Positions 82 to 12,362 of a stretch of 12,362 nt of DNA are shown here, in pieces. The DNA is from Desulfobacteraceae bacterium. GTDB lineage: Bacteria; Desulfobacterota; Desulfobacteria; Desulfobacterales; SURF-15. Numbering within the stretch: position 1 is the stretch's first letter; every line of letters starts with the position of its first letter. The position numbers and the translations under genes were made by a program. Below the pieces are notes generated by a model. The model was not told where the DNA came from. It did not search any database and saw only the letters and a list, made by a program, of their open reading frames with translations. The stretch spans positions 1-12,362 of the forward strand of contig QZKK01000239.1 in NCBI GenBank assembly GCA_003599475.1, read 5' to 3'.

Positions 82-606
82 CAAACTGGTAATGCTCCCC
101 CGGATATCGTCCTGATGGATTTGTCGCTTCCCAGGACGGACGGGATGACGGCCATCCAGGAGATCAAGTGTCGATCCCCGGAGACAAAAGTCCTCGTGCT
201 GACGGTTCATAAGACCGAAGGGTACGTCCGGCGGGCGCTGGAAGCCGGGGCGGATGGGTATATCCTGAAGGATGCAAATTATTTTCAGCTTGAAACCGCC
301 GTAAGGACCGTTCTCTCCGGAAACCCGTATCTGAGTCCCGGAATTTCAGACGGAATCATCAAAGGCTACCTGATGGGGGTAAAATCCGCCGCACCCGAGA
401 CCCGGCTGTCCACACTTACGCCTCGGGAGCTCGAGATTTTCAAGCTGGTCGCAGAGGGGTACAAAAGCAAGGATATCGCCGATTATCTCTTCATCAGCGT
501 AAACACCGTCGATAAGCACAGAGCCAACATCATGAAGAAGCTGAACCTCCACAGCATATCCGCTCTGACCACGCTGGCCCTCAAAGAGGGGCTGGTGGAT
601 AAGTAA
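82..606 (+). pseudogene. 5'-truncated NarL/LuxR-type response regulator
   Basis: The sequence carries the second half of a receiver domain followed by a complete LuxR-type helix-turn-helix. The phospho-acceptor Asp lies in VLMDLSLP, followed by the conserved Thr strand (VLVLTVH) and Lys loop (GYILKDA). The DNA-binding part runs LTPRELEIFKLVAEGYKSKD then SVNTVDKHRANIMKKL. Homology begins before the first ATG at 115: the in-frame codons from about 94 read APPDIVL, the normal run-in to the Asp strand. An in-frame TAA at 79-81 stops the frame. The roughly 50 residues that should precede this, with the acidic pocket and first helices, are absent from all upstream frames; one of those frames instead reads a binding-protein tail. 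No ribosome binding site precedes ATG 115. I read it as a remnant that cannot form a normal receiver; a free HTH fragment could still be made. It converges with the histidine kinase, which may have been its partner. Confidence 0.7.
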
Positions 607-609
607 AGC

Positions 610-2721
610 TTAGCAAATAGCCGGCCAGAGAGCCCGGATGAGGGTGCCTTTCCCGGGCCTGGATTCGATGTCGAGCCGCCCGCCCGAAAGCTCCGCGCGT
701 TCTTTCATGCTGGCCAGTCCGAACCCCCGGTCCGTATCCTCCTTCAACGTATCCTTTTCAATGGTAAATCCGGTTCCGTTATCCTCGATGACCAGTTCGA
801 TTTCATCCTCGATCCGGCCCAGGCGGAGACGGATCGTGTCGGCCCCGCTGTGCTTGGCGACATTGTTGAAGGCTTCCTGCAGGATTCTGTATACAGCCGT
901 CCTCATCGGATCCGAGAGCAGAGATTCGTCGATATCCACATGGCTTTCGATGCAAATGCCCGAATAGATGGTTCGAAACTGCTGGCAGAACCAGAGGATG
1001 GTTTCGACGATCCCCAGGTCGTCCAGCGAAGAAGGCCTCAGCCCGGCCGCGATCCTGCGGGTCTCTTCGATCGTGTTCTGGATGATGGGAACAGCCGCTT
1101 TCACCGCCTTGACGGGGGGCGAATCGGAATCGTCTTTGAACATCCGGATGCCGTTTTCCACGCAGAATTTGATCCCGGTCAACGCCTGCCCGATGCCGTC
1201 GTGAAGCTCCCGGGCAACCCGCTTCCGTTCATCCTCCTGAGCGCTCAAAATCTTAGCGGACAGAAGCCGGAGCTCCTTCTGTGACTTCTTCAAGGCATCT
1301 TCCGTCTTTTTCCGCTCGGTATTGTCCTGAGCCAGGCAGACGATGCCCTGGAGGGAGCCGTTCTCTTCCCGCATGGCCGAACTGGAAAACATCACCGGTA
1401 TTTCACCGCCGTTCTTGTGGGCATAGACCGTTTCGATGTTTCTGATATATTCCTGCCGGGCGATCTGTCGAACGAGCGTGTCCCGGCCTGCGCTTTCTCC
1501 GAACACCCGGTAAAGCGGCCGGCCCGCGAGTTCCTCTTCTCGATAGCCGAGAAGTTCGAGGGCGGCGGGATTTGTCGTTCTGATCGTCAAATCCGGATCC
1601 GTAACGATCAGCATGTCTGCCATGGACCGGATGATCTTATCCACGTAGTTTTTGGTAACCGTCACGCGGTTGAGATCCTCGGTCATCTTGTTGAAAGCGT
1701 CTGCCACAATGCCGATCTCATCCTTTGACTGTATGGCAATCCGGGTGTCGAACCGGCCCCTCCCGACGATCAGCGCCGCATTTTTCAACTCTACGAGTGT
1801 GGAAGAGATCGAGCGTGCGAAAAAATAGAAGATGATGCTCCCCAGACCGATCCCGAAAAGATAGATGAAGACGGCTACAACCAGTAAGTCGCGGCGTGCC
1901 TCATACTTGCCACGGTGCGCCTCGGCAAGAAACCGGTCGATGACCGGCTTCATCTGCATCGCCATGTGGATGAACTGTAGCTGGAGACCTTCCTGATCCG
2001 TCCGGCCGATCTTCTCTTCGATTACCATATATTGCTTGAATGCGGTTTCATAGGCATCGAGCTCCTGGAGCATCTTCGGCACGAGGAGGTCCCGGATTTC
2101 AGAGATCCGGCTCCGCAGACGGGCTAATTGTTGCCGGATGCCTTCGATATAATCCCCCTCCCCCCTCAGTAGATAGTCTTTCTCGTGGCGGCGAAGCTGG
2201 AGGAGGTCTTCCTGGAGGTCGGGTCGATTCATTACGGCCACGCTCCGTTCGAAATCGTGTATGGCAAGTCGCCATTGTCCCAAAAGCCCCCAGTCCTTGA
2301 ACCCCCTTTCCCGGTAGGCGGCCACCATAGCGGAAGTCAATACATTGTACTCGTCTACAAGCCGGAGCAGGTTTTCGGCCGATTTCCTGGCTCCGCCGGA
2401 CGACAACCGGATCAGCTCCATGATCTCTTCGCGCGCGGATAAGAGATGATGACGATGCTCTTCCAGGTAGGTCGAACCGCCCGTCTTGAAAAACTCCTCC
2501 TTTTGAAGATCCCGGATGACAAAATTTTTCTCGGCGACTCTGGCCGACTGCATCCGGATCGTGATGCTGTCGGCAAGGGTCTGAATCCGGTCGGATCTAT
2601 CGCTGTACCCGAAAAAATAGACCATGGCCGCAAACCAGAGGAGGGCCGTTAAGAGAAGCGTTCCGACACCCCCGGTCAGCAGTTTGAACAGGATGCTTCG
2701 GTTCTGAAACCATCGGTTCAT
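610..2721 (-). CDS. NarL-family membrane sensor histidine kinase (HBM-like sensor, HAMP, PAS, HisKA_3)
   Basis: Inner-membrane sensor kinase of about 703 residues. Transmembrane segments are at roughly 17-38 and 279-302. They enclose a helical periplasmic region with two similar motifs, AEKNFVIR and HEKDYLLR, typical of the HBM (helical bimodular) small-molecule sensor fold. A HAMP linker (about 301-354), a PAS domain (about 359-469) and a HisKA_3 dimerisation domain follow; the phospho-accepting His is near residue 507 in VARELHDGIGQ. The HATPase domain (about 606-700) has its N box in EAFNNVAKHSG, then DNGTGF and GFGLASM. All catalytic motifs are intact. I chose the ATG at 2721 because GGAG lies 9 bases upstream and the protein then begins directly before the first membrane helix; an ATG at 2778 would add 19 residues with no good ribosome binding site. 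The gene ends 3 bp from the convergent truncated regulator. Ligand unknown. Confidence 0.88.
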   Translation of the reverse strand: MNRWFQNRSILFKLLTGGVGTLLLTALLWFAAMVYFFGYSDRSDRIQTLADSITIRMQSARVAEKNFVIRDLQKEEFFKTGGSTYLEEHRHHLLSAREEIMELIRLSSGGARKSAENLLRLVDEYNVLTSAMVAAYRERGFKDWGLLGQWRLAIHDFERSVAVMNRPDLQEDLLQLRRHEKDYLLRGEGDYIEGIRQQLARLRSRISEIRDLLVPKMLQELDAYETAFKQYMVIEEKIGRTDQEGLQLQFIHMAMQMKPVIDRFLAEAHRGKYEARRDLLVVAVFIYLFGIGLGSIIFYFFARSISSTLVELKNAALIVGRGRFDTRIAIQSKDEIGIVADAFNKMTEDLNRVTVTKNYVDKIIRSMADMLIVTDPDLTIRTTNPAALELLGYREEELAGRPLYRVFGESAGRDTLVRQIARQEYIRNIETVYAHKNGGEIPVMFSSSAMREENGSLQGIVCLAQDNTERKKTEDALKKSQKELRLLSAKILSAQEDERKRVARELHDGIGQALTGIKFCVENGIRMFKDDSDSPPVKAVKAAVPIIQNTIEETRRIAAGLRPSSLDDLGIVETILWFCQQFRTIYSGICIESHVDIDESLLSDPMRTAVYRILQEAFNNVAKHSGADTIRLRLGRIEDEIELVIEDNGTGFTIEKDTLKEDTDRGFGLASMKERAELSGGRLDIESRPGKGTLIRALWPAIC

Positions 2722-2778
2722 ACGTGAGACTCCGGATGAGAAGATGTTTTGTTTATACCATAGATCCCCCGCCTCCAT

Positions 2779-3069: not shown

Positions 3070-4209
3070 TCATGCGCTCAGCAGAGCTGTAAAATCCCTC
3101 TTGTTTTCGGCGGGAGTCTGGGTCGGCCGGCCGAGATCCTTTCTCGACCCGGTTTTCACCTTCACGATCGTCATGTGGGGGCCTTTGATTCCTTTCAAGC
3201 GATCGATTTCGTCTCGCAATGCAGCTTCGGTCGCTACGGTTGCCGCATTTTCGTAATTGCACCCGAGCGCGATTTTTTCGAAGTCCACCTTCGAGGCGGT
3301 CGTCGGCTGTCCCCCGGTCGATTCATAGCTGTTGTTGTCAAAGAGGATGTGCCAGAGGTTTTCCGCATGGTAGTAGCCCACCGTGGCAAGCGAGCCCATC
3401 TGCATGAGAGCCGCGCCGTCTCCGTCGAAGACGACGATCCTTCTTTCTTTCCTGAAGAGAGCGATCGCATTGGCGATCGATGCTGCACACCCCATCGACC
3501 CGACGGTATAGAAGTCTTTCGGCTTCTCCCCCCTGCGGATTCTCTGCTCGTACAGCTCTCTCGATGTCTTTCCGGTGGTCGATACGATGATTTCATCCCC
3601 GGAAAGGTTTTCGAGGAGGATCCGGATCGCCTCCTCCCGCTTCATCGGATATTCACGGGGTGAACCGGCTGGGGTTGTGTTCTCCGGATCGAATTTTTCG
3701 AAAGTGCCGGGTCTGATGATCATCGCAACAGGCATTTTCATCTCTCCGGCGGTTCGGATCAGATCGGAAACAGCTTTTTCGGCCGGATCGATTCCATCCG
3801 GAAGGATTTGAAAAGGCACCTCCAGGGTTTCAAGCAGGGGAAGCGTGATCCTCCCCATCTTTCGATGCTGCGGTTCATCGGTTTTTCCGGGCTCCCCCCT
3901 CCAGCCGATCATCATGATCAGAGGAATCGAATAGACTTCCGGATCGCAGAGGGAGGTCAGCGGATTGACCGCTTTCCCCTCCCCGGAGTTTTGCATGTAG
4001 ACAACCCCGACCCCGCCGGTCGCAAGGTGATACCCCGCCGCCAGGGCGACGGCCTCGCATTCGTTGCAGGCCGCAATGTTTGTAAGCCCCTTTCCGTGGT
4101 TGGCGGCCAGATACGCCATCCAGTCCTTGAGAGTCGAATCGGGGACTCCCGTGAAAAAAGTGATCCCCTTTCTGCCGAATACATCGAACAGCTCTCCGCA
4201 CCGGATCAT
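3070..4209 (-). CDS. ppd: Phosphonopyruvate decarboxylase (thiamine diphosphate enzyme)
   Basis: Converts 3-phosphonopyruvate to phosphonoacetaldehyde and CO2 using thiamine diphosphate (ThDP) and Mg2+ in the cytoplasm. The protein has 379 residues, the usual length for the family. The N-terminal PYR domain has TGVPDSTLKDW (20-30), the ThDP-activating Glu in NECEAVALAAGYHLATG (Glu50), then VVYMQNSG and the highly typical IGWRGEPGKTDEPQH. The C-terminal PP domain has the ThDP-Mg motif GDGAALMQMGSLATV (263 onward) through DNNSYESTGGQ, and a Ppd-like end, KDLGRPTQTPAENK. Two family motifs are altered: NEG(N)A reads NECEA and NSGLGN reads NSGEGK. ATG 4209 has GGAG 6 bases upstream. It is the last gene of the transporter operon, 28 bp after the ATPase. 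Ppd normally works after PEP mutase in phosphonate biosynthesis, but no pepM is visible here. Sulfopyruvate decarboxylase is a related alternative, less likely from the motifs. Confidence 0.85.
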   Translation of the reverse strand: MIRCGELFDVFGRKGITFFTGVPDSTLKDWMAYLAANHGKGLTNIAACNECEAVALAAGYHLATGGVGVVYMQNSGEGKAVNPLTSLCDPEVYSIPLIMMIGWRGEPGKTDEPQHRKMGRITLPLLETLEVPFQILPDGIDPAEKAVSDLIRTAGEMKMPVAMIIRPGTFEKFDPENTTPAGSPREYPMKREEAIRILLENLSGDEIIVSTTGKTSRELYEQRIRRGEKPKDFYTVGSMGCAASIANAIALFRKERRIVVFDGDGAALMQMGSLATVGYYHAENLWHILFDNNSYESTGGQPTTASKVDFEKIALGCNYENAATVATEAALRDEIDRLKGIKGPHMTIVKVKTGSRKDLGRPTQTPAENKRDFTALLSA

Positions 4210-4237
4210 GTTCTTCTCCAGCGGGAATCGATGCGCA

Positions 4238-5350
4238 TCATGCTTTCTTTTTCTTTCTTAAAAGATGAACATTCCTGGGGACTTCGATTTCGATCTCCGC
4301 CGCATTCCGGTACCGCTGCGCATCCCGCGGGTTGTACTGGTCGATGACCATGGTCCTTTCGCCGACGGTCACCGTGCACTTCGCGATAGACCCCGCATAC
4401 ATATAGGATTTCAGCGTTCCACTGAGGACATTCCTCCGGCTGGCTCCGCAGGGGAGCGAAAGGATGACACTCTCCGGCCGGATGACCATCAGCACGTCAT
4501 CGCCTCTTCGGATTTCCTCCTGCCGGAGGTTGATTTCCAGCCTGCCGTTTTCCGTGTCGATGACGGCAGTTCTCGTTTCCTCATCGATCGATTCGACCGT
4601 GCCGTCCATGAAGTTGACGTAGCCGACGAATGCGGCGATGAATTCGTTTGCCGGCCTCTCGTAGATTTCGATCGGTGTTCCGATCTGCTCGATTCTGCCG
4701 TCCCTCAATACGACCAGGCGGTCGGAAATGGCCATGGCCTCGAACTGGTCATGCGTCACAAACACGGTGGTGATATGAAGCCTTTCCTGAAGCTTGCGGA
4801 TCTCCTCGCGCATGATGAGCCTCAGGTTCGCATCGAGATTGGAGAGGGGCTCATCCAGCAGAAGCACCTTCGGTTCAAGGCTGAGCGCCCTGGCAAAGGC
4901 GACGCGCTGCTGCTGACCGCCGCTCAGCCGGTCGATCATCCGGTCCGAAAACGCCTCCAGTTCCACCATCTCCAAGAGCTCCCGGACCCTCGCCTTGATC
5001 TTTTCCTTCGGCCATTTACTGATCTTCAAGCCGTAGCCGACGTTTTCCGCAACCGTCATATGAGGAAAGAGGGCATAATTCTGAAAGCAGATCCTCGTAT
5101 CCCGAAGGTTGGGAGGAAGATCGTTGATTTTCCGGCCGTCGAGAATGATATCCCCCGCACTGATTTCGGTGAAACCGCCGATCAGCCGCAGAAGGGTCGT
5201 CTTTCCGCACCCGCTCGGCCCGACGAACGTAACCAGCTCGCCCCTTTTCACCTCCAGCGAGACCCCCTTGAGCACTTCGCTTCTTCCATAGAACTTATGG
5301 ATGTCTTTTAAGATCAACATCGGTTCTTCATTTGGATGCACATCATTCAT
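4238..5350 (-). CDS. phnT: AEP-type ABC transporter ATP-binding protein
   Basis: ATPase subunit of 370 residues that powers uptake by the adjacent permease. Walker A is GPSGCGKTT (43-51), the Q-loop Gln lies in CFQNYALFP (Gln89), the signature is LSGGQQQR (141-148), Walker B is VLLLDEP with DE at 165-166, and the H-loop His is in VFVTHDQ (His199). A C-terminal TOBE-type region follows (from about 236, FVGYVNFMDGTVES). This layout is that of the PotA/FbpC/PhnT group. Sequence alone would also fit iron or polyamine uptake; the neighbouring binding protein, fused permease and Ppd favour 2-aminoethylphosphonate (PhnT2-like). The gene starts 3 bp after the permease stop, so translation is probably coupled; AAGGGG lies about 11 bases upstream. 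A second in-frame ATG, 9 codons later, has no better ribosome binding site. Confidence 0.85.
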   Translation of the reverse strand: MNDVHPNEEPMLILKDIHKFYGRSEVLKGVSLEVKRGELVTFVGPSGCGKTTLLRLIGGFTEISAGDIILDGRKINDLPPNLRDTRICFQNYALFPHMTVAENVGYGLKISKWPKEKIKARVRELLEMVELEAFSDRMIDRLSGGQQQRVAFARALSLEPKVLLLDEPLSNLDANLRLIMREEIRKLQERLHITTVFVTHDQFEAMAISDRLVVLRDGRIEQIGTPIEIYERPANEFIAAFVGYVNFMDGTVESIDEETRTAVIDTENGRLEINLRQEEIRRGDDVLMVIRPESVILSLPCGASRRNVLSGTLKSYMYAGSIAKCTVTVGERTMVIDQYNPRDAQRYRNAAEIEIEVPRNVHLLRKKKKA

Positions 5351-5353
5351 CGA

Positions 5354-7048
5354 TCACGCAACCCCTTTCTTCTCCAGGCCGCCGCCCATTTTGGTTCTCC
5401 GGCTGATGTAATTCATGATCATCATGCAGATCATGACGATCAGGACGAGCTTCATGGTCGTTGCGGAGGCCATGCCGACTTCACCGTAAACGGCTGCGTC
5501 GAAGATCTTCACCGCGGCCAGCTCGAAGCCCGGGCTGACAAGGAAGACGACCGCACTCAAGGAGACGATCGCCGTCATGAAGGTGTAGATGAACCCGGCG
5601 ATGAAGGCTGGAAACATGATGGGAAGAACGATCTTGTAAAAGGTCGTAAAGAGGCTGGCCCCGAGATCCGAGGAGGCTTCTTCGATTTCGATATGGATCT
5701 GGTGGAGTTTGCTGATTCCCGCCTCCACACCGACGGCAAGAAAGCGGAAGACGCAGTTGAGGGCGAGGATCATGATCCCGCCCGTCAGCTTCAGCGGGGG
5801 CGCACTGAAAGCCAGAAGATAACCGATGCCGAGAACGGTCCCCGGAAGGGCGAACCCGGAAAGCGAAACCATCTCGATGAGGCTGCGCCCGAAAAATTTA
5901 CCCCGGACGATGACATAGGCCAGCAGAACGCCCATGGCGGCTCCGATGACGGCGGCTACGAAACTGACGCGGATGCTGTTGTAAATCGCCTGATTGGAAG
6001 TGAAGTCGAGGTAGTTGGACAAGACGGCATTGTGCGTGACCCCGAGGATTTTATAGAAGGATGCAACGAAAACGACCGCAAAGCAGACAAAAATCGCTCC
6101 GGCTGAAACTACGGTGACGATCAGGAAGGGGATCTTGATCAGAGGCGTCATCCTTCTTGGCTCCGATGCGACCGGTTTTCCCCCGATCGTGGTGAATTTC
6201 TTTCCCTCCAGCAGGTAGTTATGGACGAAGAAGATGACGATGCAGGGGGCGATCATGACGACCGAAAGCACGCTCCCCATGTTGAAATCGGATTCTCCCG
6301 TGATCATCGTGTAGGTATCCGGCGCCAGAAAGGGGGTCCTGCCGCCCAGAATGGCCGCATTGCCGAATTCGGCGATGGTCATGACAAAGATCAGCAGGGC
6401 CGCCTTGAGAAGCCCCGGCGCAAGGAGCGGAATGGTGATCGTGCGTAGGATGGTCGCTTCCGATGCACCCAGGTCGTAGGCGCTCTCTTCGAGGTTGGGG
6501 TTGAGCGACATCAGCGTACTTTCGATCATGATGAAGGCAAGCGGAATGAAGGCCAATGTCTGGGAGATGACGACTCCGGTGAAGCCGTAAAGCTCCCAGT
6601 GGAGATCGAGCATCCGGGTGACGAGCCCGTTTCGACCGAAGAGAATGATCAGGGAGAGGGCGAAAAGGTAAGGCGGTGCAATCAGGGGGACCAGGGCGAT
6701 GATCTTCAGCGGCTTTCGCAGGATCCATGGACCGCGGGTTGTCATGTAGGCGATGCAGAATCCGATGACGAGGCAGACCGCGGTATTGATGATCCCCAGC
6801 AGGAGCGTGTTATATAACGACTGGTAATAGTAGCTTTTACTGAAGAACGCCCTGTAATATTCCAGGGTGAATCCGGAGGGGCCCCGCAAGCTCTTGATGA
6901 GGACAGCGATGATGGGATAGAGGAGAAAGAAGGCGAGCAGCAGAAACAGAAAAGCAGCCAAGAGGTGGATCGAATGGGTGGTGAGAAAACCCCTCACCCC
7001 GCGGCTGCGGCTTGGTTGCAGTCTTACCGGTAGCTCTGCTGTCGCCAT
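5354..7048 (-). CDS. AEP-type ABC transporter permease, two permease domains fused
   Basis: Inner-membrane channel of 564 residues that contains two binding-protein-dependent permease domains in one chain. Each half carries the EAA loop that docks on the ATPase: LEESAYDLGASEATILR... (about 186-213) and IEEASSDLGASLFTTF... (about 455-482). A polar linker near 283-300 separates the halves, and about 12 hydrophobic segments are visible. Single-chain double permeases of this size are known in the FbpB iron family and in the PhnU2-type putative aminoethylphosphonate permeases. The context favours the latter. AGGAG is 4 bases before ATG 7048. The gene follows the binding-protein gene by 35 bp and precedes the ATPase by 3 bp. 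Confidence 0.85.
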   Translation of the reverse strand: MATAELPVRLQPSRSRGVRGFLTTHSIHLLAAFLFLLLAFFLLYPIIAVLIKSLRGPSGFTLEYYRAFFSKSYYYQSLYNTLLLGIINTAVCLVIGFCIAYMTTRGPWILRKPLKIIALVPLIAPPYLFALSLIILFGRNGLVTRMLDLHWELYGFTGVVISQTLAFIPLAFIMIESTLMSLNPNLEESAYDLGASEATILRTITIPLLAPGLLKAALLIFVMTIAEFGNAAILGGRTPFLAPDTYTMITGESDFNMGSVLSVVMIAPCIVIFFVHNYLLEGKKFTTIGGKPVASEPRRMTPLIKIPFLIVTVVSAGAIFVCFAVVFVASFYKILGVTHNAVLSNYLDFTSNQAIYNSIRVSFVAAVIGAAMGVLLAYVIVRGKFFGRSLIEMVSLSGFALPGTVLGIGYLLAFSAPPLKLTGGIMILALNCVFRFLAVGVEAGISKLHQIHIEIEEASSDLGASLFTTFYKIVLPIMFPAFIAGFIYTFMTAIVSLSAVVFLVSPGFELAAVKIFDAAVYGEVGMASATTMKLVLIVMICMMIMNYISRRTKMGGGLEKKGVA

Positions 7049-7083
7049 CTTTCTCCTGTACGGAAAAGAATTCCCGAAGAAGG

Positions 7084-8085
7084 CTATTTCGCCTCGGTTC
7101 TGAACTTCTGTTTCCAGATTTCGTTATTTTTGGGGCGATCCTCGGCCGCCTTGGCCAGATCGATCTTGACGAATTTGGGAAGCGTATCCCCATAGAGTTT
7201 GTTCGGGGCAGGTCGAGGCGTGACATAGCCGATATCGGCCATGACCGCGCTGAATTCCTTTGTGCCCAAAGCATCGATCACCTTCTTGGTTACATCGAGG
7301 TTCTTCGTTCCTTTTAGAATAAAAGCGAAGGTGCCGTCATATCCGGTTCCCTCCTCGGGGACGGTCCAGAGGATGGGATAGCCGTCATCGAGGCGCTTCT
7401 TGACGTTTTCGTCGGAGGTGATGCCCAGCATGAATTCCCCGCGGCCGACGAGGTCCGTCGGGGCATTTCCGCTGCGGGTGTAGTGATGGATATTCTTATC
7501 GAGGTCCGAGAGGAATTTCCATCCCTCGTCATCGCCGTAGAGCGCAAGGAAAGTATACCGCATCATGTTGGCCGTACCGGAGCTCAGCGGAGACGGCATG
7601 ACGATTTCGTTTTTCCACTTCGGATCGAGGAGGTCTTTCCAGCTCTTGGGCATGCTGTAGCCGGCTTTGGCCAGCCGGTCCTTGTTGCCTACCAGGACGA
7701 AGGAGAAGTTCGCGAAGTTGTACCAGTACCCCTCCGGATCCATGAATACATTGGACGTACCCTTCCAGGCTTCGGATACGTACGGAACGGACCACCCATT
7801 TTTCTTGGCCATGAAGGCCAGGGGCGAGCCGCAGCCCGCGACCATGTCTGCATTGAAATTCGGAGCCTCCGCCTTTACGCGGGCTTCGATCTCTCCGAAG
7901 GATTGAAACGTCTGGTTGATCGTTATGCCTGTTTTGTCCTTGATGAAATTGACGATCTTGAGATTGTTTTCGGGAGAGGTTCCCATATAGGCACTGATCG
8001 TATCCGCTGCCTGAAGATTGCCGGGAACAAGGCCGAAGAAAAGAATCGATGCAAAGGCCGTAATGATCAGAGACTTATGTTTCAT
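7084..8085 (-). CDS. phnS: Periplasmic substrate-binding protein of AEP-type ABC transporter
   Basis: A 333-residue secreted binding protein that should deliver the ligand to the fused permease. A classical signal peptide is visible: MKHK, a hydrophobic core (LIITAFASILFFGLV), and a probable cleavage site after NLQA (residue 26). The mature part has the Fbp/spermidine-type fold signature DTISAYMGTSPENNLKIVNFI near its start and MPSPLSSGTANMMRY in the hinge region. That fold is shared by ferric-iron and putative aminoethylphosphonate (PhnS/PhnS2) binding proteins. HHYTRSGNAPTDLVGRGE resembles the phosphonate branch rather than ferric binders with paired Tyr ligands. ATG 8085 is chosen because a strong AAAGGAGG lies 6 bases upstream (8092-8099) and the signal peptide begins there; a longer reading from 8157 would add 24 basic residues encoded by DNA repeats. 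It is the first gene of the operon. Confidence 0.85.
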   Translation of the reverse strand: MKHKSLIITAFASILFFGLVPGNLQAADTISAYMGTSPENNLKIVNFIKDKTGITINQTFQSFGEIEARVKAEAPNFNADMVAGCGSPLAFMAKKNGWSVPYVSEAWKGTSNVFMDPEGYWYNFANFSFVLVGNKDRLAKAGYSMPKSWKDLLDPKWKNEIVMPSPLSSGTANMMRYTFLALYGDDEGWKFLSDLDKNIHHYTRSGNAPTDLVGRGEFMLGITSDENVKKRLDDGYPILWTVPEEGTGYDGTFAFILKGTKNLDVTKKVIDALGTKEFSAVMADIGYVTPRPAPNKLYGDTLPKFVKIDLAKAAEDRPKNNEIWKQKFRTEAK

Positions 8086-8103
8086 TTTGTGCCTCCTTTG
8101 ATT

Positions 8104-8142
8104 GGATCGGATTCGGATCGAATTCGGTTTGATTCGGATCGG
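8104..8142. repeat. Helically phased ATTCGG/GATCGG repeats before phnS
   Basis: ATTCGG occurs at 8111, 8122 and 8132, spaced 11 and 10 bp, with related GATCGG units at 8105-8110 and 8137-8142. The 11-base unit GATTCGGATCG occurs exactly twice (8110-8120 and 8131-8141), a 21-bp period equal to two DNA turns. Tandem half-sites spaced about one turn are typical of response-regulator or multimeric regulator binding. These do not match the PhoB box (CTGTCAT). They lie inside the predicted leader, 20-57 bp before the phnS start, so a repressor role or an RNA role is possible. Confidence 0.45.
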
Positions 8143-8257
8143 TTGACGAAGCGACATGACCCTTGGGGCCGGTTCTTCGGATCAATTAGATCAATCTGGT
8201 GGATCATTCTGGAAAATTCGGTGCGGTCCATCCCCCCTTTCTTTTCGAGCTTTCAAT

Positions 8258-8286
8258 TTTATAACAAACCCTCTGCTGCATGTCCA
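8258..8286 (-). promoter_or_regulatory. Candidate sigma-70 promoter of the phosphonate uptake operon
   Basis: Read on the minus strand, TGGACA (8286-8281) is separated by exactly 17 bases from TATAAA (8263-8258), a good sigma-70 promoter match. Transcription would begin near 8251 and leave a leader of about 165 bases before phnS. That leader holds further short repeats: GATCAAT at 8180 and 8189, and the ATTCGG array. Predicted from consensus only. Confidence 0.5.
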
Positions 8287-8411
8287 GATGAAAACCTGTA
8301 ACTATTTGAAATGGTTAAAAGGAAAGAAAACCAGGAGTCGAACTGAACATTAAGCACAGTTTTTCATGCAAGACAAGGTAATTAAAATCATGGAAATCAT
8401 AAACAAGAGTC

Positions 8412-8482
8412 ATACGGTAGCCGAGGGAGAGAGGATTGAAATGTCTCCCCGTCGCTGCACCGACTTCGGGTGAGACCCGTAT
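8412..8482 (+). ncRNA. Possible structured RNA element (three-way junction) upstream of pit
   Basis: Nested complementary arms are visible. P1 pairs ATACGG (8412-8417) with CCGTAT (8477-8482). P2 pairs CCGA (8421-8424) with TCGG (8466-8469). Two hairpins sit inside P2: GGGAGA/TCTCCC (8425-8430 with 8444-8449) and GTCG/CGAC (8451-8454 with 8461-8464). Only one unpaired base lies between the two hairpins and one between the second hairpin and P2. An alternative hairpin CGGGT/ACCCG (8467-8471 with 8475-8479) would break P1 and P2, which is the mutually exclusive folding expected of a switch. I do not recognise a known riboswitch class. Short stems can occur by chance, and it is uncertain whether pit transcripts start upstream of this element. 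Confidence 0.3.
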
Positions 8483-8501
8483 AACTTAAATTCATTTTCA
8501 A

Positions 8502-8547
8502 TATAATATTATTTAATTTGACTTGCCGGTTGAAACTCGTTCATATA
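8502..8547 (+). promoter_or_regulatory. Candidate promoter region for pit-DUF47
   Basis: An AT-rich stretch contains a perfect TATAAT at 8502-8507, without a good -35 at the right distance. It also holds TTGACT at 8518-8523, with CATATA 18 bases downstream (8542-8547). Either could start a transcript that runs through the terminator at 8588-8619 into pit. If only these promoters are used, the RNA element at 8412-8482 would not be in the pit transcript. Confidence 0.3.
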
Positions 8548-8587
8548 AATATCCCAGTTGTTTCGCCTTTCTGCGGCAGAAAATCGG

Positions 8588-8619
8588 ACGGCATCTTCTC
8601 TGGAACAGATGCCGTTTTT
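8588..8619 (+). terminator. Intrinsic terminator-like hairpin in the leader of pit
   Basis: ACGGCATCT (8588-8596) pairs perfectly over 9 bp with AGATGCCGT (8607-8615). The loop is 10 bases, and the T run reaches 8619. It lies 74 bases before the pit start codon, and no plus-strand gene lies between 607 and the pit start. It is therefore better explained as an attenuator of pit than as the end of an upstream gene. Confidence 0.6.
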
Positions 8620-8692
8620 CGGGAAAAGCGGACTGCCGCGGAGGGATCAATCCCGATCGTGCGCTTATCCCGATTCTGAGAAGGTCCTATCC

Positions 8693-9637
8693 ATGTGGAA
8701 ACTGGTCGGCGGCATCTTCCTGGGCTGGGGCCTGGGGAGCAATGATTCAGCCAATGTATTCGGCACCGGAGTTGCGGCAAGTCTGATCAGGTACCGGACG
8801 GCCGTCATCCTGACTTCGATTTTCGTGATCATTGGCGCCATGCTCGAAGGCTACAAGAGCATGGGGATCGTCGGCGACATGTCAAAAATGAGCCATACGG
8901 GGGCGTTTATCGCAACTCTTGCAGCGGGTATCTGCATGGCAGGATTTTCCTATCTGTCCCTTCCTGTCTCCGCCTCCCAGGCGATCATGGGAGCGGTGCT
9001 GGGAGTCGGCATGGTTTCGGGAATCCCTGATTTTTCACCCCTCATCAAGGTCGTTCTCTGCTGGGTGCTGACCCCTATCGGCGGCATGGTTCTTACCACG
9101 GCTCTGTATCCAATAATCGGGAAGGCTTTAGAGAGGGTCCTGCTCAATCCTGCAAAGCGGACGGTCTTTATCCGCCTGGGCGTGCTCTTTGCCGGATGCT
9201 ACGGCGCCTACTCACTGGGGGCCAACAACGTCGCCAATGTCACAGGGGTATATGTAGGATCCGGTCTTCTGACCCCTATGGAAGCCGCACTGATCGGGAG
9301 TCTCAGCATCGCCTTCGGGGTACTGACTTACAGCAGAAAAGTCATGGAGACAGTCGGGAAAAAAATCGTCGAACTGGACGGATTCTCCGCCTTCGTTTCG
9401 ACTCTTTCGGCCTCTTTGACGGTGCACTTTTTTACCCAGTTGGGGGTGCCGGTGTCCACCTCTCAGGCCACCGTAGGCGGGGTGGCCGGGATCGGATTTG
9501 TCAAAGGTACCCGAACCATTCGGAAAAGGACCCTGATCGAAATCGGAATCGGATGGATCTCCACCCCGATATCGACCGGGCTGCTCTCTTACTTGATGAT
9601 GCGGATTTACATTGCTTTTTCCCTCACCGGAGCATAA
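8693..9637 (+). CDS. pit: PiT-family inorganic phosphate permease
   Basis: Inner-membrane phosphate transporter driven by cation symport (H+ or Na+). The protein is 314 residues if ATG 8693 is used. The two inverted-repeat PiT signatures are clear: GSNDSANVFGTGVA (from residue 15) and GANNVANVTGVYVG (from residue 176). Each half also carries the matching second motif, PVSASQA (91-97) and GVPVSTSQA (251-259). About 8-10 hydrophobic segments are visible and there is no large cytoplasmic loop, so it belongs to the short bacterial/archaeal PiT form. ATG 8693 is preferred because AAGG lies 8 bases upstream and the protein then starts at the first PiT helix; a longer reading from 8558 adds 45 non-homologous residues that overlap the terminator hairpin. 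It is co-directional with the DUF47 gene 34 bp downstream. In this context it may re-import or export phosphate released from phosphonates; direction and cation cannot be read from the sequence. Confidence 0.88.
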   Translation: MWKLVGGIFLGWGLGSNDSANVFGTGVAASLIRYRTAVILTSIFVIIGAMLEGYKSMGIVGDMSKMSHTGAFIATLAAGICMAGFSYLSLPVSASQAIMGAVLGVGMVSGIPDFSPLIKVVLCWVLTPIGGMVLTTALYPIIGKALERVLLNPAKRTVFIRLGVLFAGCYGAYSLGANNVANVTGVYVGSGLLTPMEAALIGSLSIAFGVLTYSRKVMETVGKKIVELDGFSAFVSTLSASLTVHFFTQLGVPVSTSQATVGGVAGIGFVKGTRTIRKRTLIEIGIGWISTPISTGLLSYLMMRIYIAFSLTGA

Positions 9638-9671
9638 TAGAGAGCGAAAAAAAGATCGAGAAGGAGGGCCG

Positions 9672-10325
9672 ATGTTTTTTTCAAGAAAGGAAAAGGAAGT
9701 CACCGCACTTCTCATCAAGCATCTCGACATTGTCGAGGAGTGTCTGAAAACCGGCGTAAAGGCAATTCGGACCTACCTCATGGAAGATATCAAAGAAGCA
9801 AAAGCGCTGGCCAAGAGAGTCGATGCGATAGAGACAAACGCCGATCTGGTCCGCTACGAGATCCGGGACAAGCTGTTTGCGGGCGCTTATCTGCCGAGGC
9901 TTCGAGAAGATATCTATCGACTGGTCGAAAGCGTCGACGAGGTTGCCAACGCGGGTGAAAGCTGCTGTGATTTTTTTCTCAATCAGCGACCCATGATTCC
10001 TGCAGATCTCAGAGATGCATTTCTCAAGGCGGTCGAGGAGTCCCTTGGCATCATCAATCCCCTGAAGAAATCGGTTCTCGGTTTTTTAAAAGGAGAATGC
10101 CCCATAGAGGTTTCCCGGAAACATGCCAAAGAGGTCGGACTCAAGGAATCGGACGTCGATATCATCGAATGGGATTTGAGCCGTGATATCTTTACGCACA
10201 AGGGAATCGACTTCAGCCAGAAGATCCATTTGAAGCTATGCCTGGATTCTATCGGCCACGTTTCGGACCAGGCAAAGAATGCATCCGACCAGCTCGACCT
10301 GGTGATACTGAAATCGATGATTTAG
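9672..10325 (+). CDS. DUF47 (PhoU-like) phosphate transport accessory protein
   Basis: A 217-residue soluble, almost all-helical protein of the DUF47/TIGR00153 family, distantly related to PhoU. Typical features are the N-terminal FFSRKEKEVTALLIKHLDIV, the helix with AKALAKRVDAIETNADLVRYEIRD, and the acidic segment DIYRLVESVDEVANAGE, which probably binds metal as in PhoU. Members are usually encoded next to PiT transporters and are thought to modulate them, as here. ATG 9672 has AAGGAGG (9661-9667) 4 bases upstream, a very strong site; a reading from 9612 would overlap the end of pit. No membrane segments are seen. The gene is convergent with the PbfA-like gene. Confidence 0.87.
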   Translation: MFFSRKEKEVTALLIKHLDIVEECLKTGVKAIRTYLMEDIKEAKALAKRVDAIETNADLVRYEIRDKLFAGAYLPRLREDIYRLVESVDEVANAGESCCDFFLNQRPMIPADLRDAFLKAVEESLGIINPLKKSVLGFLKGECPIEVSRKHAKEVGLKESDVDIIEWDLSRDIFTHKGIDFSQKIHLKLCLDSIGHVSDQAKNASDQLDLVILKSMI

Positions 10326-10335
10326 AAGTTATTTA

Positions 10336-10400
10336 GATCGGCAGCGATTTGCCCTGAATGCCGTTCTGCGCGGACCCCCTGCCTGTACCGGCATCCGATC
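10336..10400. terminator. Possible stem-loop between convergent DUF47 and pbfA genes
   Basis: GATCGG (10336-10341) can pair with CCGATC (10395-10400). ATGCCG (10358-10363) can pair with CGGCAT (10389-10394), directly stacked on the 3' side. No T run follows on either strand. It lies between the two convergent stop codons, where a shared transcription end would be expected. Weak evidence only. Confidence 0.25.
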
Positions 10401-10445
10401 GTCGAAATCTCATTCATCCATGTTGCGGCCGGCTCTCTCCCGGAT

Positions 10446-11798
10446 CTACGCCTCCAGCTCTCGGAGGCAATCCTCGATAATATCCAGCGCTCGGTTTAAC
10501 TCCGCCTCGGTGATGGTGAGCGGCGGCGTGAGGGTGAGGATGTTTCCCATGGTCAGCTTGAAGCTCAACCCTCTTGAAAGCGCCCGGTACATCACTTCCT
10601 CCGCTTCATCTGATGCGCGCTCCCGGGTGGCCCGGTCTTTGACCAGCTCGATTCCCAGGAAAAGTCCCAGCCCCCGGACGTCTCCGATCAGCGGATGCCG
10701 ATCCATCATCTCCTTCATCCGCTCAAGCGCTTTCCTGCCCAATTCCGCGGAATGCTCCACCAGCCCGGTTTTTTCGATATAGGCGATCGCGGCCAACCCG
10801 GCCGCGCAGGCCACCGGGTTTTTTTCGTGCGTGTAGTGGCCGAGAGCCCGGTCTGCAGCCACATCGAGGTCCTCGCGCGCAATCAGTGCCGCCAGCGGAA
10901 AGATCCCGCCCCCCAGGCCTTTTCCGATCACCAGGATGTCCGGCACCACTCCGAAGTTCTCGCAGGTAAACATCTTCCCCGTGCGGCCGAGGGCGTGCGG
11001 GATCTCGTCGAAGATCAGCAGCGCCCCATGGCGGTCGCATGCCTCGCGGATAGTCTTCCAGTATTCCGGCTTGGGGATGTAAGGCGTGCTTCGGATCGGC
11101 TCTGCAACGACGGCCGAGACGTCCCCCTCTTTTTCGAGCATGTATTCCACATATCTTGCGCAGGTAAGATCACACCCTCCCCGGCCGTGACATCCGAAGA
11201 CGCAACGATACTCGTCCGGCGGGGGCGCGTGCTCGGTGCCGGGCAGAAGCGGGCCCGCATTCTGGCGGAAAAGCGCCTCGCCCCCGATGGAGACGGCATC
11301 CAGGGAAGCCCCGTGGAAGGAGTCCCACATGGAGATCGTCTTGTGGCGTCCGGTCGCGGCCCGGGCAAGCTTGAGCGCCATGCCGATCGCCCCCGTGCCG
11401 CCGGGGCACAAGAGCACCTTGTTTAGATTCCCCGGGGCGATCTGCGAAAGTTTTTTGGCAAATTCGACGGCCACCCGATTCGTATAGCGCCGGGTGGAAA
11501 ACGAAAGCGAATCGAGCTGGGCCTTGATGGCCGAGATCACCTCCGGATTGGCAAACCCGACCTGGTGGACGTTATTGCCATGGAAATCCATGTACCGGCG
11601 CCCCTGGAGGTCTTCGATGTAGATGCCTTCGCACCGCGCCATGGCGTTCAGACACGGGGTCGAAAGCGACTGCCGGAGAAAGTACCGGGCATCCTCCTGC
11701 AGGAGGTCCCGGGTTGCCGCATCGAGGTGCTCTTCCTGCCATTTTCTTCGCCGGTCGGAGAAGTTGATGTCTCCTTCGGATTGATGGAGTCCAGCCAT
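10446..11798 (-). CDS. pbfA: (R)-1-hydroxy-2-aminoethylphosphonate ammonia-lyase, PbfA-like class III PLP enzyme
   Basis: A 450-residue fold-type I PLP enzyme of the class III aminotransferase superfamily. PbfA eliminates ammonia from (R)-1-hydroxy-2-aminoethylphosphonate to give phosphonoacetaldehyde, so this natural AEP derivative can enter the PhnW pathway. Visible motifs: LSTPCLNAM and DLQGRRYMDFHGNNVHQVG near the N-terminus, the phosphate-binding PGGTGAIGMALKLARA, DSFHGASLDA, the PLP-N1 Asp in IFDEIPHALGR (Asp264) and the Schiff-base Lys in VIGKGLGGGIFP (Lys293). The N-terminal pattern and the FHGNNVHQVGF segment match PbfA proteins as I recall them, better than ordinary class III transaminases. 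I chose ATG 11798 because AGGGAA-rich Shine-Dalgarno-like sequence precedes it and homology starts there; a start at 11894 would add 32 unrelated residues. A CX3CX5CX3C motif (residues 199-213) is notable. The divergent phnW supports the role. A general transaminase remains the alternative. Confidence 0.8.
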   Translation of the reverse strand: MAGLHQSEGDINFSDRRRKWQEEHLDAATRDLLQEDARYFLRQSLSTPCLNAMARCEGIYIEDLQGRRYMDFHGNNVHQVGFANPEVISAIKAQLDSLSFSTRRYTNRVAVEFAKKLSQIAPGNLNKVLLCPGGTGAIGMALKLARAATGRHKTISMWDSFHGASLDAVSIGGEALFRQNAGPLLPGTEHAPPPDEYRCVFGCHGRGGCDLTCARYVEYMLEKEGDVSAVVAEPIRSTPYIPKPEYWKTIREACDRHGALLIFDEIPHALGRTGKMFTCENFGVVPDILVIGKGLGGGIFPLAALIAREDLDVAADRALGHYTHEKNPVACAAGLAAIAYIEKTGLVEHSAELGRKALERMKEMMDRHPLIGDVRGLGLFLGIELVKDRATRERASDEAEEVMYRALSRGLSFKLTMGNILTLTPPLTITEAELNRALDIIEDCLRELEA

Positions 11799-11894
11799 TT
11801 CGATTCCCTTTCCCTTATGTTGCCCATGTTCTGCGTGACCAATAAACGATAACGCGGTTTTCCATAAAGTGCCAGTGAGAAGATAGGCATGCAC

Positions 11895-11992
11895 AGTTTC
11901 AGGTGGTCGGGTTTCAGCTGTCAGATGAGACCGGGATCTGAAACCTGAATCCCGCAGAAACGGGAAAACCCGAAAACTCGAAACGGAGCTTT
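11895..11992. repeat. Intergenic palindromic and short-repeat cluster upstream of pbfA
   Basis: GGTTTCAG (11910-11917) pairs perfectly with CTGAAACC (11938-11945). TTCAGGT (11898-11904) pairs with ACCTGAA (11943-11949). CGGGAAAACCCG (11961-11972) forms a further small hairpin, followed by CGAAAACTCGAAAC. These GTTTCAG/CGAAAC units resemble, in inverted orientation, the GTTTCGG units at 2978-3026 on the other side of the cassette. They look like remnants of a dispersed intergenic repeat. They lie about 100 bp upstream of the pbfA start; no clear pbfA promoter was found. Confidence 0.45.
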
Positions 11993-12046
11993 TCAGATAG
12001 CTGTAAATGATAAACTGCGGTTATCGAAAACATGATAATTATTCTT

Positions 12047-12075
12047 TTGCTTATATATTCGAAAAATTCTATGAA
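12047..12075 (+). promoter_or_regulatory. Candidate sigma-70 promoter of phnW
   Basis: TTGCTT (12047-12052) and TATGAA (12070-12075) are separated by exactly 17 bases in an AT-rich stretch. TTGCTT is also one arm of an inverted repeat with AAGCAA (12077-12082), so the promoter core sits inside a 36-bp near-symmetrical site. Transcription would start near 12082, leaving a leader of about 77 bases before phnW. Confidence 0.5.
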
Positions 12076-12087
12076 GAAGCAATGACA

Positions 12088-12133
12088 TCCGGAAAACGCT
12101 TTCTCCGGACGAATTCATGGATTGGTCATCCAT
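12088..12133 (+). promoter_or_regulatory. Two inverted repeats in the phnW leader, possible operators
   Basis: TCCGGAAAACGCTTTCTCCGGA (12088-12109) is an imperfect palindrome, with TCCGGA at both ends. ATGGAT-TGGTC-ATCCAT (12117-12133) is a 6-bp inverted repeat with a 5-bp centre. Both lie just downstream of the predicted phnW start of transcription, where repressor operators or RNA hairpins often sit. No T run follows, so they are not terminators. Confidence 0.35.
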
Positions 12134-12158
12134 AGTCCTATCTTATGGAGGTATTCGA

Positions 12159-12362
12159 ATGGAAGTCAATCAATTGCCGGATAATCCCTACCTGCTTCTG
12201 ACTCCCGGACCGCTGTCCACGTCCAAAACGGTCAAGGCGACGATGCTCCGGGACTGGTGCACGTGGGACGACGACTACAAGGATCTCGTGGAAGAGGTCC
12301 GTTCAGGGCTTGTGCGGTTGGCGACACGGAAAACCGAGGCCTACACGACGGTATTGATGCAG
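12159..12362 (+). CDS. phnW: 2-aminoethylphosphonate:pyruvate transaminase (partial, 3' end outside window)
   Basis: The first 68 residues of a PLP aminotransferase that moves the amino group of 2-aminoethylphosphonate to pyruvate, giving phosphonoacetaldehyde and alanine. The PhnW N-terminal signature is clear: [27 protein letters not shown], then [12 protein letters not shown] and the run toward YTTVLMQ. The start is fixed by GGAGG (12147-12151) 7 bases before ATG 12159. It is divergent from pbfA, 360 bp away, with a candidate promoter at 12047-12075. The catalytic Lys lies beyond the window and could not be checked. In biosynthetic clusters the same family runs in reverse (AepW); the uptake genes here favour catabolism, but a Ppd nearby keeps the other reading open. 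Confidence 0.92.

Follow-up and report, generated by a model that had tools for sequence, protein, structure and literature searches.

A phosphonopyruvate decarboxylase gene at the end of an ABC importer operon near pbfA and phnW: a biosynthetic-type enzyme probably recruited to aminophosphonate catabolism

Gene clusters containing phnW have been surveyed for routes of aminophosphonate breakdown. In Zangelmi et al. 2021 (PMC8154272) and in the FAD-enzyme paper (PMC10590968), according to the accessible parts of both texts, phnW clusters located near pepM and ppd were excluded as biosynthetic. A review (PMC10574752) gives, in its accessible part, PalB/PalA as the route for phosphonoalanine, and the main text of the 2025 PbfF paper (PMC12366243) does not contain the terms phosphonopyruvate, Ppd, or PalA. 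A catabolic phosphonopyruvate decarboxylase (Ppd) was not reported in the literature searched, most subscription papers being outside the search; since the surveys dropped phnW clusters near pepM and ppd, such an enzyme could have been overlooked. Here, we analyze a ppd gene in a 12,362-nucleotide (nt) stretch of DNA from a Desulfobacteraceae bacterium (contig QZKK01000239.1; referred to as the window), to which all unprefixed positions refer. In the window, ppd closes the operon of an ABC importer and is accompanied by pbfA and by the beginning of phnW. The enzyme encoded is of biosynthetic type, and its most probable history, as judged from sequence comparisons, is recruitment to aminophosphonate catabolism at this importer operon.

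Nine window proteins were run against profile families. The 379-residue product of ppd (3070–4209, minus strand) is a thiamine-diphosphate decarboxylase with TPP_enzyme_N and TPP_enzyme_C domains that scored 429.9 bits against the phosphonopyruvate decarboxylase model TIGR03297 (cut-off 312.5), in agreement with the first-pass annotation, which had been made from the letters of the window. It is the final gene of a minus-strand run that starts with genes for a periplasmic solute-binding protein (SBP; 7084–8085; SBP_bac_6, 94 bits in the profile search), a fused two-domain, PhnU2-like ABC permease (5354–7048), and a PotA/PhnT2-like ABC transporter ATPase (4238–5350). The gaps in this run are 35, 3, and 28 bases, and the four tightly spaced same-strand genes bear out the earlier call that ppd closes an importer operon. 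The SBP start was set at the ATG at 8085, ahead of a signal-peptide-like stretch, within an open reading frame (ORF) open to 8157. The call of pbfA (10446–11798, minus strand) also held, with 719.4 bits against NF049939 (cut-off 525); its ORF spans 10446–11894, and the start was picked where homology sets in. The window stops inside phnW and contains only its first 68 codons (12159–12362, plus strand). They are 84% identical over 68 residues to a full-length PhnW from the draft genome G001 introduced below, which scored 599.6 bits against TIGR02326 (cut-off 400.8), so that the identity of the gene was retained and its completeness was not. As noted earlier, pepM is not seen in the window: phosphoenolpyruvate (PEP) mutase is none of the nine proteins searched.

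The window Ppd scored far below the cut-offs of two sulfopyruvate decarboxylase models (130 bits with a cut-off of 221.5 and 79 bits with a cut-off of 148). In 21 Ppds from genomes with pepM, 45 residues do not vary, and the 16 members of the clade to which the window Ppd belongs all retain 43 of them; the remaining two positions, 248 and 374, are variable within that clade, and the window protein deviates at both. In a midpoint-rooted tree of 58 of the 120 listed homologues, the clade (support 100/99) unites the window and G001 proteins with 14 database homologues (P0001–P0014; 65 to 95% identity, compared as sequences alone). It is nested in a larger clade (100/99) that also contains three members from genomes with pepM (two of archaea and one of Marinimicrobia). 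An 18-row group, mostly pepM-linked, is located outside the larger clade. On these comparisons, the window Ppd is a gene of biosynthetic type. Position 295, where 19 of the 21 Ppds from pepM-bearing genomes have His and all 16 clade members have Tyr, was considered as a specificity marker and dropped because Tyr also occurs in 39 of 106 further homologues.

When the genome collection was scanned for Ppd, 11 loci were obtained. The best one (L001) belongs to G001, a 5.5-Mb draft genome named Deltaproteobacteria bacterium, and is 75% identical to the window protein; the next is 54% identical. No second close Ppd was present in 389 genomes of the class of G001 or in a second draw of 291 genomes from its order, leaving G001 as the sole carrier. 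Its ppd is located on a 28.6-kb contig (L106 and L001) together with genes for a DUF47 protein, a PiT transporter, PhnW (589.6 bits, cut-off 400.8), a LysR-like protein (as we read the ORF), a paralogue of PbfA (651 bits, which also exceeds the PbfA cut-off of 525), and an L-sulfolactate dehydrogenase-like protein (240 bits, cut-off 500) whose gene overlaps the pbfA paralogue at its end. A second contig (L107 and L129) contains the PhnW gene that matches the window fragment, an alanine-dehydrogenase-like gene (again as we read it), and a partial PbfA with 86% identity to the window PbfA over 377 residues. No pepM over the cut-off was found in G001: the best PEP-mutase-family hit scored 148 bits (cut-off 320), and we read this protein as an isocitrate-lyase-type enzyme. 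No palA over the cut-off (best hit 123 bits, cut-off 374) and no phnX were detected either. The first-pass annotation had proposed a catabolic branch in which imported phosphonoalanine is transaminated to phosphonopyruvate and decarboxylated by Ppd. The combination of ppd with phnW, a pbfA paralogue, and pit/DUF47 in a genome lacking pepM, palA, and phnX hits supports a branch of this kind; a phosphonoalanine transaminase and the expected sink for phosphonoacetaldehyde, two further parts of that proposal, were not seen.

Ppd scored over the cut-off in 17 of the 389 class genomes, and PEP mutase was searched in these and in four genomes with Ppd hits below the cut-off. A pepM-like gene adjoins ppd in 13 of the 17 (11 over the cut-off, one of 303 bits in G301, and a piece at a contig end in G347). 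In the other four, pepM is on another contig (G158), ppd is cut off from one side by a contig end (G222), or there is no pepM (G032 and G001). The G032 Ppd (L067:9424-10557) is over the cut-off, with no pepM hit in that genome; judging from its ORFs, the surrounding stretch reads like surface-sugar or natural-product synthesis. Among the four sub–cut-off genomes, a 310-bit PEP-mutase hit is at most 2 kb away in G251 and G033, and no such hit was obtained in G228 and G260; the Ppd-like gene of G260 is cut. Matches to Ppd were also found in 22 plasmid records, all at less than 60% identity. Nine Mycetohabitans records list a PEP mutase gene under the Ppd match, and each of the eight ppd stretches examined from the other 13 records has a PEP-mutase relative within 6 kb. 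This plasmid control counts in favor of a catabolic role at the window locus. So does a comparison of 20 stretches surrounding other ppd genes of the class with the window proteins (kinase and regulator matches left out of the listing), which detected the importer, PiT, DUF47, and PbfA in none of them.

The survey also bears on the alternative offered by the first-pass annotation, a mixed biosynthesis/salvage island with pepM outside the window. In such an island, Ppd would feed the synthesis of 2-aminoethylphosphonate (AEP) through reversed PhnW, and salvage would be left to the importer and PbfA. The nesting of the window-clade Ppds, biosynthetic in type, with Ppds of pepM-bearing genomes is consistent with such an island, and the separate contigs of pepM and ppd in G158 indicate that a distance between them is possible. 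Both G029 and G030 encode PbfA along with pepM and ppd, but ppd and pbfA are on different contigs in each. The alternative loses ground through G001, which has a close Ppd and no pepM over the cut-off in 5.5 Mb, and the operon that the window Ppd shares with the importer also argues against it; we consider a mixed island unlikely.

The importer provides a second line of comparison. Its SBP scored 164 bits against the PhnS2 model TIGR03261 (cut-off 393), its ATPase 370 bits against the PhnT2 model TIGR03265 (cut-off 458; the best model was PotA, with 378 bits and a cut-off of 482), and its permease 283 bits against the PhnU2 model TIGR03262 (cut-off 593). Because all three are under these curated cut-offs, the importer is not classed as PhnS2/PhnT2/PhnU2, and the earlier designation of an aminophosphonate importer draws its support from context in relatives. 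At the limit used, permease matches were found in 14 of 41 genomes encoding PbfA (described below), and in eight of these the permease is 59 to 87% identical to that of the window. The eight comprise 0 of the 15 genomes with PhnX, 7 of the 21 with a HAD protein considered below, and one (G142) with neither; six of the eight permease genes are at most 20 kb from a PbfA-family gene. In G241, the importer is 77 to 87% identical to that of the window (ATPase, 79.5%; SBP, 76.6%) and shares one contig with a PiT gene (45% identity to the window protein), a DUF47 gene, and two PbfA genes, and it is an EamA-type transporter gene, not ppd, that comes after the importer ATPase. Since G241 has the same importer and PbfA without Ppd after it, Ppd looks as if it was added to an importer operon already associated with PbfA. 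The alternative is a loss in G241; addition is simpler because G001 was the only one of the 41 PbfA genomes to show a Ppd of the window clade, the Ppds of G029 and G030 belonging to another clade.

Several observations weigh against a catabolic role for Ppd. G001 is the only genome that shows ppd with catabolic genes, and its best permease match is only 33% identical to the window permease, so its importer is either different or absent from the draft; the contig end cuts the other, importer side of its ppd. The ppd of G001 is 11 kb away from the pbfA paralogue, and genes read from ORFs as a peptide importer, an M20 peptidase, an amidohydrolase, and an MFS transporter are located between them. 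The ppd-importer operon of the window was found in no other genome searched. The sequence of the source organism examined is the window, so pepM may be present elsewhere in that organism, and G001 is a draft. The curated models assign no substrate to the importer, and no phosphonoalanine transaminase is visible. The weakest points are the single comparative genome with its differing importer, the importer substrate, and the transaminase.

The amidohydrolase, peptide importer, and M20 peptidase genes of G001 form a cassette that is present in two copies (51 to 76% identical; L001:2505-11185 and L130:2858-12664). One copy is separated from ppd by a single MFS-like gene, and the other holds a PhnA-like gene. 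The cassette may free phosphonates from peptides or amides.

The locus is probably an island for aminophosphonate catabolism and, judging from its relatives, belongs to a probable deltaproteobacterial anaerobe. The role that we consider probable for the window genes is as follows. The ABC importer would take up phosphonates. PhnW, acting on AEP, and PbfA, acting on (R)-1-hydroxy-AEP, would both give phosphonoacetaldehyde. Ppd would most likely decarboxylate phosphonopyruvate of extracellular origin, also to phosphonoacetaldehyde, and a third substrate would thereby join the same intermediate. The phosphonopyruvate may be imported as such or may be produced from phosphonoalanine or phosphonolactate by an enzyme encoded outside the window. 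The same gene evidence would be expected if Ppd had a housekeeping or detoxifying function, clearing phosphonopyruvate, an analogue of phosphoenolpyruvate, that arises in side reactions of aminophosphonate uptake, with little nutrient gain; no dedicated phosphonoalanine transaminase being visible is compatible with this idea. The placement of ppd inside the importer operon suggests that Ppd serves an imported substrate, and a detoxifying function has, in our estimate, a slim chance of being correct.

The fate of phosphonoacetaldehyde was considered next to that of its sources. The accessible part of a 2013 genome paper (PMC4046663) reports that no phosphonatase (PhnX) homologue was present in the sulfate reducers then sequenced, which was called striking, and that phnA was present in 18 of 95. 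In G001, the sink expected by the first-pass annotation, phnX or phnY/phnA, was not seen, and another set of genes was found: phnX is absent and phnA was matched weakly (about 210 bits, cut-off 408; phnY was not searched), and a row of genes on the second contig encodes a SauS-like dehydrogenase and a 233-residue HAD protein (L129:974-3200) together with a PhnA-like protein. PbfA was surveyed in 379 class genomes; the HAD protein was also surveyed in 379 genomes, which are taken as the same set (same group, same number, matching handles). PbfA was found in 41 of the 379 genomes, in 40 of them over the cut-off. Fifteen of the 41 have PhnX over the cut-off (G032, searched too, has none), and 21 have relatives of the HAD protein, with PhnX over the cut-off in none of the 21; five have neither. 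This exclusion gives a Fisher P value of 2.4e-7, kinship ignored. PhnA was over the cut-off in 0 of the 41, with four weaker hits (phnY was not searched). In the whole set, the HAD protein is present in 24 genomes, 21 of which are PbfA genomes (Fisher P = 3e-20). A dehydrogenase gene, in part or in full, is located within about 1.5 kb at 16 of the 21 HAD loci.

The dehydrogenases of G001 (503 bits) and G041 (502 bits) come closest to the model for SauS, an acylating sulfoacetaldehyde dehydrogenase (cut-off 600). In G041, G239, and G241, the dehydrogenase-HAD pair is preceded, in the same orientation, by two citrate-synthase-like genes and a gene for a PhnW-like class V aminotransferase, which in G041 is over the PhnW-AepZ cut-off (415.9 versus 360.8 bits). 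Adjacent pairs of citrate-synthase/citryl-CoA-lyase-like genes were observed at L106:4432-6365, L122:1635-3574, L187:10855-12791, and L189:7967-9906; in G001, the pair is located on the ppd contig.

The likeness to SauS points to a different explanation, in which the decarboxylase makes sulfoacetaldehyde from sulfopyruvate, the SauS-like dehydrogenase oxidizes it, and the phosphonate genes are mere neighbors. Ppd and sulfopyruvate decarboxylase are related, and the sulfolactate-dehydrogenase-like gene at the end of the G001 pbfA paralogue would fit this sulfonate role as well. However, the decarboxylase exceeds the Ppd cut-off by a wide margin and falls well short of the two sulfopyruvate decarboxylase cut-offs, the dehydrogenases remain under the SauS cut-off, and the window PbfA, the G001 PhnW, and the G041 PhnW-AepZ protein are all over theirs. 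A sulfonate role therefore appears improbable.

A PbfA tree was built from 36 of the 41 genomes and three plasmid records. The window PbfA falls in a clade of 22 rows (support 99/99), of which 17 come from HAD genomes, four from genomes with neither protein, and none from PhnX genomes. At a fork with support of 81/83, this clade is joined to two Vibrio rows and to a 12-row clade in which PhnX genomes contribute 11 rows. Because its PbfA falls in a clade without PhnX genomes, the window organism most likely has the HAD type of sink, encoded outside the 12.4 kb seen. A second PbfA-family paralogue (an 18-row clade; L106:14618-16009, L110, L118, L119, and others) often adjoins PbfA.

Forty-two rows chosen from 120 listed hits were aligned to inspect the HAD protein. 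D8, G10, Q11, and T12 of the first motif are invariant in all 42, so that the residue two positions after the nucleophile is a glycine. HAD phosphatases carry an acid at this place; PhnX and haloacid dehalogenases do not. A structural model of the protein predicted a confident HAD fold, which does not discriminate functions. In the proposed sink, the SauS-like acylating dehydrogenase would convert phosphonoacetaldehyde to phosphonoacetyl-CoA, and the HAD hydrolase, lacking the +2 aspartate, would cleave phosphonoacetyl-CoA to acetyl-CoA and phosphate, replacing PhnX. PhnX cleavage uses a Schiff base; the phosphonoacetyl thioester would presumably stabilize the leaving carbanion, and no Schiff base would be needed. 

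Phosphonoacetyl-CoA as a catabolic intermediate and an acylating phosphonoacetaldehyde dehydrogenase were not reported in the literature searched, most subscription papers being outside it; the sole paper found with phosphonoacetyl-CoA (PMC12871164) mentions it, in its accessible part, in the context of biosynthesis. Some genomes fit the HAD proposal less well. In G386, the HAD protein occurs together with a PhnA hit slightly short of the cut-off (402 versus 407.6 bits), G001 also has PhnA-like proteins, and G233, G302, and G282 have weak hits to the PhnX model (60 to 118 bits). Three of the 24 HAD genomes (G275, G336, and G337) have no PbfA hit at the limit used and may use the HAD protein with another feeder enzyme. 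The PhnX-free sink is the lead with the greater novelty; its basis is co-occurrence in the 41 PbfA-bearing genomes from a single draw of one class. The full combination, with a catabolic Ppd and the shared phosphonoacetaldehyde consumed through the SauS-like dehydrogenase and C-P cleavage by the HAD protein in PbfA-bearing relatives, is a tentative proposal that we put at clearly less than an even chance.

The window also contains genes for a PiT/PHO4-family phosphate transporter (8558–9637, plus strand; PF01384, 176 bits) and an adjoining DUF47/PhoU_div protein (9672–10325, plus strand; PF01865, 91.9 bits). The pair recurs near PbfA in relatives, and each of the two families is present in 7 of a set of 22 stretches that includes the window; the role of the pair may be to balance the phosphate freed by C-P cleavage. 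On the other side of ppd, the window contains genes for a response regulator (115–606, plus strand), whose receiver domain is aligned only from model position 48, and, beside ppd, a histidine kinase with a HAMP/PAS sensor (610–2778, minus strand). Both score far under the cut-offs of named full-length families. A scan of the window for promoters and terminators gave 5 and 10 sites, with means of 4.7 and 10.5 in shuffled sequences, and was uninformative.

If Ppd has the role proposed here, phosphonoalanine or phosphonopyruvate would have a second entry into the supply of phosphorus, carbon, and nitrogen, and gene counts that equate ppd with phosphonate production would need care. The HAD-dehydrogenase pair, if it acts as suggested, would supply the missing C-P cleavage step.

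The window locus shares features with four known systems. The Ppd family is that of the pepM-ppd cluster of AEP biosynthesis, with the window protein over the curated cut-off; the difference is that pepM is found neither in the window nor, over the cut-off, in G001, and that the window Ppd belongs to an importer operon. The palAB pathway (PMC8154272 and PMC10574752, accessible parts) would use the same substrate through phosphonopyruvate. PalA converts phosphonopyruvate to pyruvate and phosphate, whereas decarboxylation to phosphonoacetaldehyde is proposed for the window, and G001 has no PalA over the cut-off. In the Vibrio phnW-pbfA-phnX clusters (PMC8154272, accessible part; plasmid records L176 and L178), a putative AEP importer is located beside phnW and pbfA; importer genes beside phnW and pbfA, and phosphonoacetaldehyde as the common product, are shared with the window. 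The Vibrio stretches contain phnX and no ppd, whereas in the window ppd is part of the importer operon and PbfA belongs to a subclade without PhnX genomes. Last, in the phnWYA system, represented by a Ruegeria plasmid record (L177), phosphonoacetaldehyde is oxidized rather than directly hydrolyzed, as it would be here, and the Na/Pi cotransporter gene that adjoins a PbfA-like gene in this record also resembles the window; in contrast to phnWYA, the relatives of the window, including G001 with its 210-bit PhnA-like match (cut-off 408), have a SauS-like acylating dehydrogenase and a HAD hydrolase.

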